DNA from: an uncultured cyanobacterium
GTDB taxonomy: Bacteria > Cyanobacteriota > Cyanobacteriia > PCC-6307 > Cyanobiaceae
Reading direction: 5' to 3'
DNA: 64,000 nt
Assembly (NCBI GenBank): GCA_903858015.1
Contig: CAIOGZ010000023.1
Span: 1-64,000 of the forward strand
Positions 12,495 through 17,517 of the stretch are shown here, one piece after another (positions within the stretch are counted from its first letter, which is position 1; the number at the start of each line of letters is the position of its first letter). The translations under genes and the position numbers were made by a program. The notes below the pieces were generated by a model. The model did not search any database. It worked only from the letters and a program-made list of their open reading frames with translations, and was not told the DNA's origin.

Positions 12495-13538
12495 TCAGGC
12501 GGCAGCCAGCTGGGCACCCCGGACCAGCTCAAGACCGAGGGCGCGGAAGCCGTGACGAAGGGATGCGTCGCCAATGCGTTCCATGCTGGCAAGGCTGATG
12601 TTGTTGCGCCCCCAGCTGAAGTTCGTGTGAATCCCTTCAAACTCAAGCAACATCGCTTCGGCAAAACAGGCGAACAGCTGGCGCTTTGGATTCGCCATCT
12701 CCGCTACCTGCATCATCTGCCAGCCAAGATCCTGCCAGAACTCCACAATGCCGCCTTTGATCACATGGACGTCTTCGCTCTCGACCAGGCTGTCAAGGTT
12801 TTTTGGGTAGCCCCCATCGATCATCAAGCAAGGATGGCGAAGGCTGCCTGAATCGATGCTGAGGCCCTGGGGAAGGCTGGCCACCCAGACCACCACATCC
12901 GCCTCGGCGAGGGCCTCGTTGAGCTCGAGGATGCGACCGGATCCCAGCGTGCTCTGCAGCTCGATCAAGGGCTGGGGACGGCGGGCCACCAGCAGCAACT
13001 CGCCCACGCCCTGGCGTTGCAGCCAGCGACAGACCGCACTGCCAATATCACCGCTGGCTCCGACAACAGCCACCTTGGCCTTCGCAAGCTCGATGCCCAA
13101 TCGCGGTGCATTTTGGACAACTTGCTGGCAGATCACCCAGGCGGTGTGGGTGTTACCGGTGGTGAAGCGCTCCCAATCTAGGCGCGTGTTACGGACCTGT
13201 TGCTCGTTGAGCAAGTTGAGATTTTCAAAAATAATCGACGTAAAGCCCCCCAGCGCAGTGATCGCAATGTCATTCTTCTGGGCCAGCTCCATGGCGTTGA
13301 GCACCTTGCGCTTGGCCGTTTTGAAACGGCTTAGCATTTCGGGCACAAACACAGAATCGATGTAGGCCCCTTCAATCGTTTGGCCGGTGGGGCTGGTTAC
13401 GGTCACCTTCTCCACCAACTGGGGTGGAGCTACACACCACATTTCAAACTCGCCATCCGCGTATTCGGGGTAGCCAAGTTTGCGGGCCGTAGCCCTTGCC
13501 TCGTTGAGGCTGGTGGAGTGACCGATCAGGCCGAACAT
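12495..13538 (-). CDS. aar: Long-chain acyl-[acyl-carrier-protein] reductase (AAR)
   Basis: 347-residue NADPH-dependent reductase making fatty aldehydes from acyl-ACP, the first step of cyanobacterial alkane synthesis. [11 protein letters not shown] at the N-terminus and [12 protein letters not shown] are characteristic. [12 protein letters not shown] is the dinucleotide-binding loop, and the Cys in [11 protein letters not shown] corresponds to the catalytic cysteine of this family. It lies directly downstream of ado, with accA next, in the arrangement known from many cyanobacteria. Confidence 0.97.
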
Positions 13539-13611
13539 GCGCGTAACAGCTGCAGCGGAGTGGAATCACCGACCTGGGCCGGTCGCCCATCCTGCCATGG
13601 CTGGGTGAAGC

Positions 13612-14379
13612 TCAGCCCAGCAGAGCAGCCGTGGCCAGGCGAGCGATCTCGCGGGAGCTGAAGCCAATCTCGCTGAGCACCTCCTGGTAGGAGGCCATGA
13701 AATCGGCCATCAGATCTTCCTTTTCCATGTGGAGCACGCTGGCATCGTCGGCCACCTGTTCAAGCATGCGGCGCACGTGGGGCAGGTTGGCCCGGTTGGC
13801 TTCTTCCAGTTCGCTGCGGCTGGACTCTAAATTTGCCTTGAGCCATTGTTGACCGTAATTAAGGTGGGTGTATTCGTCCTGCACCACGCCCTCGGTGATC
13901 TTGCGAGCAAAGGGATCAGCCACTGGGATGTAAATGTGGTAAGCGGCTATCGCAAAAGCTTCGATCAGGATCGACTGTATCAACAAGCACGTTACTAGTT
14001 TTTGCTCGGCTAAGGCGAGCTGAAAGTTTTCACGAAGTGGTGTAAAGAACTCGCTGGCAAACTTCATGTCAGCTGTGACACCAAGGTTGGCGGCGCAAGC
14101 TGCGAAACCTTTCTTATGTTTCATCTCCATTCGGGCTAGCCTTGCCAGCTCATCTGCTTGCTGGGGCAGTAGCTGGGCAATCGATAGGTAATTGTCGTGG
14201 GCTTCCTGCTCGCCCTCAATCACAATCCCATTGATGCGACTGTAAGCATCCTTGTAAGCGGCACTGCTGAAGTCCGGAAGGTCCGTTGCTTGCTGCTCGA
14301 GCGGCGCGGCCCCTGGAGCCACCTGGGGCGCGCCGACCAGTCCAGGCGCGGGGGAAAGCTCAGTCGGGGTGACCACCAT
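13612..14379 (-). CDS. ado: Aldehyde-deformylating oxygenase (alkane synthase)
   Basis: 255-residue non-haem di-iron protein that turns fatty aldehydes into alkanes (C n-1) and formate. All iron-ligand segments are present: [34 protein letters not shown] and [11 protein letters not shown] 30-residue Pro/Ala-rich N-terminal extension precedes the conserved core. The ATG at 14379 is clear. It is followed by aar. The middle of the gene is visibly less GC-rich than the rest of the region, consistent with strong constraint on the core. Confidence 0.97.
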
Positions 14380-15297: not shown

Positions 15298-15595
15298 ATG
15301 GCCGGATCCGGCACCCCCGCGCCGCGTCAACCCCGGCCCCCTGTGCAACGGCCTGGCGTGGCGGCGACTCCGCCGCCACGCAAGCCGCCCCAGGTGATGT
15401 TGATCCGCAAGGACGAAGCGGCCCAGCCCGTCGAGGCTGCCGTGCCGCCAGCCAGCCAATTGACGCCCCCCCCCCGTTGCTGGCCCATCCTCTGCCCACC
15501 CCCCGCTAGCTCCTTCCCAGGCAGGGCCTGGGCCCTCCAGTCGCCCGGTCGGCCGCTCCGATGCGGAGCTGTTTGACCTCGGGGGCCTCGAGGGC
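15298..15595 (+). other. Probable 5' coding part of the S1 gene, out of frame
   Basis: An ATG at 15298, preceded by GAGG, opens a frame reading MAGSGTPAPRQ and KPPQVMLIRKDEAAQP. A run of ten C (15466-15475) follows, after which this frame turns to nonsense and stops at 15576. The frame of the S1 gene, open from 15464 on, reads SRPVGRSDAELFDLGGLEG up to its ATG at 15596. Removing one C would join both into a 433-residue protein. Sequencing error, slippage or real mutation are all possible. Confidence 0.6.
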
Positions 15596-16600
15596 ATGAC
15601 CATGGCCGATCTGCTTGGACCCGACCCCGGCCGGGCCCGCCCAGCGGGCAACCGCAGCGCCTCGGCAGCCGCTCCAGCGGCGGCCAAGCCAGGGCCGCAG
15701 CGCACCGTGGACGAATTTGATTTTGACGAGGAGGCCTTTTTGGCTGCCCTCGATGAGAATGAGCCCGTCGGTACGACCGGCGAGGTGGTGAGCGGCACCG
15801 TGGTGGGGGTGGAAAGCGATGGCGTGTACGTCGATATCGGCGGCAAGGCCCCAGGCTTCATGCCGAAAAAGGAGGCCGGTCTTGGTGTGATCACCAACCT
15901 CAAGGAACGCTTCCCCCGGGGCCTGGCCTTGCAGGTGCTGGTGACCCGGGAGCAAAACGCCGATGGCATGGTCACGATCAGCGCCCGCGCCCTGGCCCTA
16001 CGCCAAAGCTGGGAGAAGCTGCGTCAGCTGGAGAAAGATGGCAAGGTTGTGCAGGTGCAGATCAACGGCTTCAACAGGGGCGGCGTCACCTGTGACCTGG
16101 AGGGCCTGCGAGGATTTATTCCCCGCTCCCAGCTTCAAGATGGTGAAAACCACGAAGCATTGATCGGCAAAACGATTGGCGTTACCTTTTTGGAGGTTAA
16201 TCCTGAAAGCCGCAAACTAGTCCTTTCCGAGCGCAAAGCCGCCACGGCCGCCCGTTTCGCCGAATTGGAAGTCGGGCAGTTGGTGGAGGGTCAGGTGGCG
16301 GCCATCAAGCCCTATGGCTTTTTTGTCGATCTCGGTGGCATCAGTGGCCTGCTGCACCACAGCTCCGTCAGCGGCGGTGTCCTGCGGGATCTGCGGGAGG
16401 CCTTCGAGCCCGGCGAGCGGATCAAAGCCTTGATTACCGAACTCGACCCCGGCCGGGGTCGGATCGCGCTGAATACGGCGTTGTTGGAAGGCCAACCCGG
16501 GGAGCTGCTGATCGCCAAGCAAACCGTGATGGCTGAAGCGGCCGATCGGGCTAACCGGGCCCGCTCGCTGCTGCGCCAGAAGGAACAGGACGCCGGATGA
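15596..16600 (+). CDS. S1-domain RNA-binding protein (ribosomal protein S1 paralogue)
   Basis: 334 residues are readable from the ATG at 15596. Acidic TVDEFDFDEEAFLAAL is followed by three S1 OB-fold domains: GEVVSGTVVGVESDGVYVDIGGK, QVQINGFNRGGVTCDL and GQVAAIKPYGFFVDLGG regions. This three-domain form is the cyanobacterial and chloroplast S1 type, which recruits mRNA to the 30S subunit; cyanobacteria often carry a second S1-like gene. The N-terminus probably starts at 15298, with a frameshift in a poly-C tract. The end overlaps the Tab2 gene start by four bases. Confidence 0.9.
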   Translation: MTMADLLGPDPGRARPAGNRSASAAAPAAAKPGPQRTVDEFDFDEEAFLAALDENEPVGTTGEVVSGTVVGVESDGVYVDIGGKAPGFMPKKEAGLGVITNLKERFPRGLALQVLVTREQNADGMVTISARALALRQSWEKLRQLEKDGKVVQVQINGFNRGGVTCDLEGLRGFIPRSQLQDGENHEALIGKTIGVTFLEVNPESRKLVLSERKAATAARFAELEVGQLVEGQVAAIKPYGFFVDLGGISGLLHHSSVSGGVLRDLREAFEPGERIKALITELDPGRGRIALNTALLEGQPGELLIAKQTVMAEAADRANRARSLLRQKEQDAG

Positions 16601-17517
16601 GCGGCACCAGCTTGGATAACCCCAACCCTGCGCCCGCCTGCGCAGTCGACGCCGACTGGGAACTCGACTACTACTCCAGGCCCGTGCTGGAGCCCGATGG
16701 CCGCAAGCGTTGGGAGCTGCTGATCTGCGCCACCCCGCCCCCCGGGCCGACCAGCGAGTCCTCCCCAGCCTTCCGATCGGTCACGAGCTGTCCGGCCAGC
16801 AGCGTTAATTCCGTTTGGCTGCGGGAGGCGATCGAGGCGGCCCTGGCCGAGGCTGAGGCGAGGGGGTTCGGACGTCCTCGCCGCCTGCGCTGCTGGCGCG
16901 GCTCGATGCGCACCATGGTGCAGCGGGCCGCCGAATCGCTCCAGCTGGAGCTGGTGCCCAGCCGCCGGTGCTATGCCTTGGTGGAATGGCTGCAGCAACG
17001 GCAAGCGGAGATTTATCCCGCCGACCCCGGCTACTTGGTGGGGCCCTTGGCTCCCCCAGCCGCTGCGATCCGTCCGGTGCCGGTGCCGTTACCCGAGGTG
17101 GCCCGCGGTGATCGCTGGGCCTGGGCCACCCTGCCCGTTGCCGCCCTGGCGGAGGCCAGCGAGTGGCCGATGGGCTTTTCCGGTCTGGTCCAACTGCCTG
17201 CAGGCATCGATGGCGAGGCAGCGGTGCCGGGGATCCGCTTGTTTAGTCGGCACAGGGCCCTGGCCATCGCCGGCTGGCTGGCGGGCCTGGAGCCGGTGCG
17301 GCTAGAGGTGGATGGCGATCAGCTCGTCCTGGAAGCCGGTCTGGAGGATCGCTGGTTGCTCACGGGGCTGCCCCAGGAGGAGGCCCGGCTTGCCGCCACC
17401 GCCTTCAGCGAGGCTCGCCAGCGGGCCGGCGGACTCCAGTTTCTAGCCGTCCAGGATGGCGAAGGGGACCAACGGCTTCAAGGCTTCTGGTTGTTGCGCG
17501 ATCTGCCCGATGCCTGA
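16597..17517 (+). CDS. Tab2/Atab2 family RNA-binding protein
   Basis: 306-residue protein of the Tab2 family. In plants and green algae Tab2 binds RNA and is needed for translation of photosystem I psaB (and more photosystem proteins in Arabidopsis). The diagnostic start WELDYYSRPVL with KRWELLIC and later RCWRGSMRTMVQRAAE are present. ATGA overlap with the S1-like gene makes co-translation likely and fits a shared role in mRNA handling, although the cyanobacterial function is inferred from the plant homologue. Confidence 0.9.
   Translation: MSGTSLDNPNPAPACAVDADWELDYYSRPVLEPDGRKRWELLICATPPPGPTSESSPAFRSVTSCPASSVNSVWLREAIEAALAEAEARGFGRPRRLRCWRGSMRTMVQRAAESLQLELVPSRRCYALVEWLQQRQAEIYPADPGYLVGPLAPPAAAIRPVPVPLPEVARGDRWAWATLPVAALAEASEWPMGFSGLVQLPAGIDGEAAVPGIRLFSRHRALAIAGWLAGLEPVRLEVDGDQLVLEAGLEDRWLLTGLPQEEARLAATAFSEARQRAGGLQFLAVQDGEGDQRLQGFWLLRDLPDA

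Follow-up and report, generated by a model that had tools for sequence, protein, structure and literature searches.

A ten-cytosine tract divides an S1-domain gene of a picocyanobacterial assembly between two reading frames, most likely through a one-base error in tract length

We found that an S1-domain gene in the assembly of an uncultured picocyanobacterium is carried in two reading frames that meet at a run of ten consecutive C (C10). The break at this tract is private to the source genome, and relatives conserve the two halves as a single protein. Most likely, with a probability of roughly 0.55, the gene is one uninterrupted S1-paralogue frame, as it is in its relatives, and the C10 of the assembly is one base off through a miscount. 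The tract length would in that case have been misread by library PCR, sequencing or consensus error, and we infer that the miscount is technical and does not lie in the cell's DNA. For annotation, the locus would then be one gene with a tract-length problem, neither a truncated S1 paralogue nor a pseudogene. The window analyzed here, a stretch of 64,000 nucleotides, is part of contig 23 (CAIOGZ010000023.1) of a 3.84 Mb genome in 100 contigs. The genome is 99.93% complete, and its relatives are Cyanobium/Synechococcus-type picocyanobacteria. See Table 1 for the coordinates of all features.

Table 1. Features of the S1-paralogue locus, in window positions
Feature	Position	Strand	Basis
5' part of the S1-paralogue (putatively Rps1b-like) gene, N-terminal extension MAGSGTPAP...KPPQVMLIRKD..., first 56 codons	15298..15465	+	Same-frame similarity to orthologue N-termini; dN/dS
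C10 tract, frame-switch site	15466..15475	+	Sequence; switch-point likelihood
Out-of-frame continuation of the upstream frame, ends at TGA 15574-15576	15476..15576	+	Translation; Cys and Trp present, absent from all 66 orthologous linkers
Second-frame remainder of the gene, with the Pro/Ala-rich linker, the three S1 domains and the stop codon	15476..16600	+	Pfam S1 x3; orthologues up to 88% identical
Possible internal restart ATG (MADLLG...), GAGGG at 15590-15594	15602..15604	+	ATG in 86/86 loci
Downstream overlapping gene, Tab2/Atab2-like RNA-binding protein	16597..17517	+	PF06485, PF20429

The tract is the longest homopolymer in the window, which also holds nine further C/G runs of 8–9. The upstream frame (15298+3n) starts with ATG 15298 and remains open until the TGA listed in Table 1. 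The S1 frame (15596+3n) opens no earlier than 15464, with a TGA at 15461–15463 immediately before it, and runs to the end of the gene. The initial annotation had placed the frame change at the ten-C run and had stated that nine C would give a single frame of 433 residues. Coordinate arithmetic confirms the latter, and the extent of the open frames together with a switch-point scan confirms the former. In the scan, every possible switch point was scored by a likelihood that takes its amino-acid composition from 66 orthologous linkers. The optimum is flat, extends over 15463–15480, and contains the C10 tract. Placing the switch from 15481 on loses at least 8 log units, and placing it upstream of 15463 loses at least 16, which rules out a switch elsewhere, such as at the C6 near 15499.

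Both frames belong to the same ancestral gene. The orthologue set comprises 88 distinct loci, including the window. In 81 of the 87 others, the MAG-type start and the KPPQV-type motif are complete and share the frame of the S1 domains. Five more (L025, L061, L081, L086, and L089) are cut by the end of the sequence and are open over what remains. At L051, the motif and linker are in frame, and the start of the contig (1–60) is an inverted copy of its own sequence; it had first seemed to be another orthologue whose extension contains a stop, but we rejected this reading because the inverted copy looks like an artefact of the assembly edge. The shifted frame architecture was found in none of the 87 other orthologous loci. 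Since the extension is whole and in the S1 frame in 81 of them and shifted in none, the upstream frame is ancestral. An unrelated upstream open reading frame that overlaps by coincidence is ruled out, as both the MAGSG start and the KPPQV motif match the orthologues. The initial annotation had also considered that orthologues might begin at the internal ATG and have no similarity to the upstream frame. This was not the case in the orthologues compared, and the conservation of the upstream frame rules out the internal ATG as the true gene start.

Apart from the break, the gene is under constraint. NG86 dN/dS for the S1 part is ~0.07 against the two closest relatives, a rough value with dS near saturation. 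For the extension, it is ~0.36–0.44 against the same two relatives and 0.2–0.37 against others, likewise rough at 44–49 codons. We saw no further decay of the S1 gene, which has no stops and retains its gene order. The C tract itself is absent from the closest relatives, which are 88% identical. Other orthologues carry scattered C7–C9 runs in the Pro/Ala-rich region, all of them in frame. We found no other genome of this species. The break is private to one assembly, lies at a homopolymer, and interrupts a gene that is otherwise constrained, which is the pattern of a homopolymer length error. We therefore favor a miscount on three counts from the locus itself, namely that 81 of 87 other loci are whole, that the switch point coincides with the window's longest homopolymer, and that the gene is otherwise undecayed.

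Furthermore, another conserved gene of this assembly, ppc, loses its frame at a run of ten C. It encodes PEP carboxylase, a central anaplerotic enzyme, and the tract lies at G000:C42:22099-22108 (L159 1501-1510). The gene is single-copy in the source genome and whole in 12 of the 12 relatives sampled, and its offset is opposite in sign to that of the S1 gene. A like break at C10 in the opposite direction, in a gene that is whole in every relative sampled, supports a miscount in the S1 gene as well.

Runs of this length are not rare in the assembly. Of 94 C/G runs at least nine bases long, 33 reach ten or more (derived from match counts); overlapping C9 matches number 144 in the source genome and 11 to 268 in each of its congeners. 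A C10 tract is ordinary for this genome. We audited the neighborhoods of all 33 runs of at least ten and of about 45 runs of exactly nine. Tracts within genes were called by codon scoring in wide windows plus inspection, and the numbers are small; scoring over 180 bases was too weak. Most audited tracts lie at gene ends or between genes. Two of the seven genes that span runs of at least ten are broken (the S1 paralogue and ppc), versus about 15 genes that span C9 runs, which are intact with no clear break. Apparent breaks at C9 runs in L191, L195, L202, L206, L209, L212, and L217 were, on inspection, gene boundaries or intact genes. As a separate observation, a C9 at L190 1001-1009 (G000:C9:7330-7338) lies near the end of a dioxygenase-like gene and is followed by an unusual C-terminal tail, which may be a further frame problem.

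The difference between runs of nine and runs of at least ten argues for a miscount. Because ppc and the S1 gene are both broken at C10 while genes with C9 are intact, we take C10 length to be unreliable, by miscount or by a slippage indel, and do not see phase variation or recoding in this pattern. The paired ppc defect means that C/G runs of at least ten in this assembly need checking before genes are called broken. However, five coding tracts of 10–11 C/G (L145, L160, L163, L164, and L174; by sequence, L164 resembles thioredoxin reductase and L174 resembles ThiL) keep their frame, so tract lengths are not miscounted throughout, and an indel truly present in the cells sequenced would give an identical sequence. 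A miscount also agrees with the GeneTack survey, in which singleton frameshifted genes that have an intact homologue are expected to reflect sequencing errors and not genuine indels (PMC3711429). Like those singletons, the S1 gene has a lone break and is whole in relatives. Unlike them, its break coincides with a homopolymer, and ppc in this assembly has the same type of defect.

The main alternative, less likely than a miscount, is a genuine slippage event during replication that inserted an extra C into the clone or population sequenced, whether fixed or as a mixture, so that the full-length protein is lost or reduced. At phase-variable loci of C. jejuni, rates of change for C/G runs ten bases long are ~0.0004 per division for gains and ~0.0018 for losses (PMC8224891), which makes such an event conceivable. 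However, the MutS gene of this genome scores over its family cut-off, which may hold slippage below the C. jejuni rates, and a parallel fixed break in the single-copy ppc would be costly. In eight genomes from other cyanobacterial families, the counterparts of the S1 protein consist of the core with no such long extension, which suggests that a short form may be functional. If the break is real, a 92-residue upstream product would end at 15576, and restart at ATG 15602 could yield a core with all three S1 domains. This codon stands 25 nt past the stop of the upstream frame, is ATG in all 86 loci in which the motif was found, and has GAGGG 7 nt upstream, although this Shine-Dalgarno-like element doubles as coding sequence. 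An internal start had been proposed at ATG 15596, which is ATG in 34 of the same 86 loci; ATG 15602 is the better candidate. The GAGG noted ahead of the start ATG 15298 is indeed present, but with a gap of 2 nt it has poor Shine-Dalgarno spacing. We think it very unlikely that the C10 tracts in the S1 paralogue and ppc truly vary in the population of this high-GC cyanobacterium. Such variation would yield full-length proteins mixed with others shortened at the N-terminus, and would thereby make translation and carbon metabolism noisy from cell to cell. If confirmed in cells, it would be an unusual example of core cytoplasmic genes being unstable in a cyanobacterium.

Evolved phase variation, with the C tract maintained to turn the S1 paralogue on and off, is more improbable still. 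The tract is within the length range of known poly-C/G switches and, as in the phase-variable genes of Campylobacter and Neisseria, the frame is set by a C/G tract of about ten. Unlike in those genes, the tract is unconserved, the product is not a surface protein, and there is no evidence of switching. A phase-variable gene would be expected to keep its tract, or to have it recur at the same place, in relatives; the closest relatives lack it, the scattered C7–C9 runs elsewhere leave the frame intact, and no other locus is out of frame. The tract is also one of 33 in the genome that are this long or longer, and phase-variable proteins are mostly exposed to the cell's environment (PMC3711429). 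We found no report of poly-C/G switches in cyanobacteria in the literature searched.

The least probable account is programmed recoding, in which +1 ribosomal frameshifting at CCC-C, or transcriptional slippage, would produce the full-length protein from the ten-C gene. The sequence CCC CCC CCC CGT is a possible +1-prone proline run and would suit the former. However, a recoded gene should show conservation of the shifted architecture, which none of the 87 other loci share, and the RNA downstream of the tract is ordinary, being no more structured than shuffled sequences (z 0.19). Transcriptional slippage is further disfavored by data from E. coli and Buchnera transcripts, in which insertions at homopolymer runs were seen only in A/T runs; G/C was under-represented in E. 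coli transcription deletions, and the study's conclusion is that runs of G or C do not tend to slip (PMC5574713). The initial annotation had offered error, slippage or phase variation for the tract. A one-base difference in tract length fits, by error or by ordinary slippage, whereas phase variation and programmed slippage are unsupported for an unconserved, singleton tract with no unusual RNA structure.

The encoded protein belongs to the S1-domain (Rps1-type) proteins, with three PF00575 (S1) stretches at E 7.4e-29 in Pfam. Its nearest NCBIfam model is 30S ribosomal protein S1, NF005639, at 224 bits, below the cut-off of 460, and the genome has a second S1 gene at G000:C86:3867-4784. We therefore regard the window gene as a paralogue that is probably Rps1b-like, a name based on architecture that refers to Synechocystis slr1984 by likeness only. 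Like Rps1B of the slr1984 type, it is an S1-domain RNA-binding protein encoded in a genome that also has a more canonical S1 gene. Unlike it, the Cyanobium/Synechococcus/Prochlorococcus members have a Pro/Ala-rich N-terminal extension (window 15298–15595), which is found across the picocyanobacterial family. Rps1A and Rps1B have been described as acting in Shine-Dalgarno-independent initiation (PMC12475003).

The Tab2/Atab2-like gene directly follows the S1 paralogue with an ATGA overlap in all 84 loci with enough sequence. The two genes form a strongly conserved pair for RNA-binding, translation-type proteins. A scan of the locus for promoters and terminators found nothing. Upstream, a creatininase-family gene is divergent from the S1 paralogue in 81 of 81 loci. 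Genes for acyl-ACP reductase and aldehyde-deformylating oxygenase, an alkane synthesis pair, adjoin on the minus strand at window 12495–14379.
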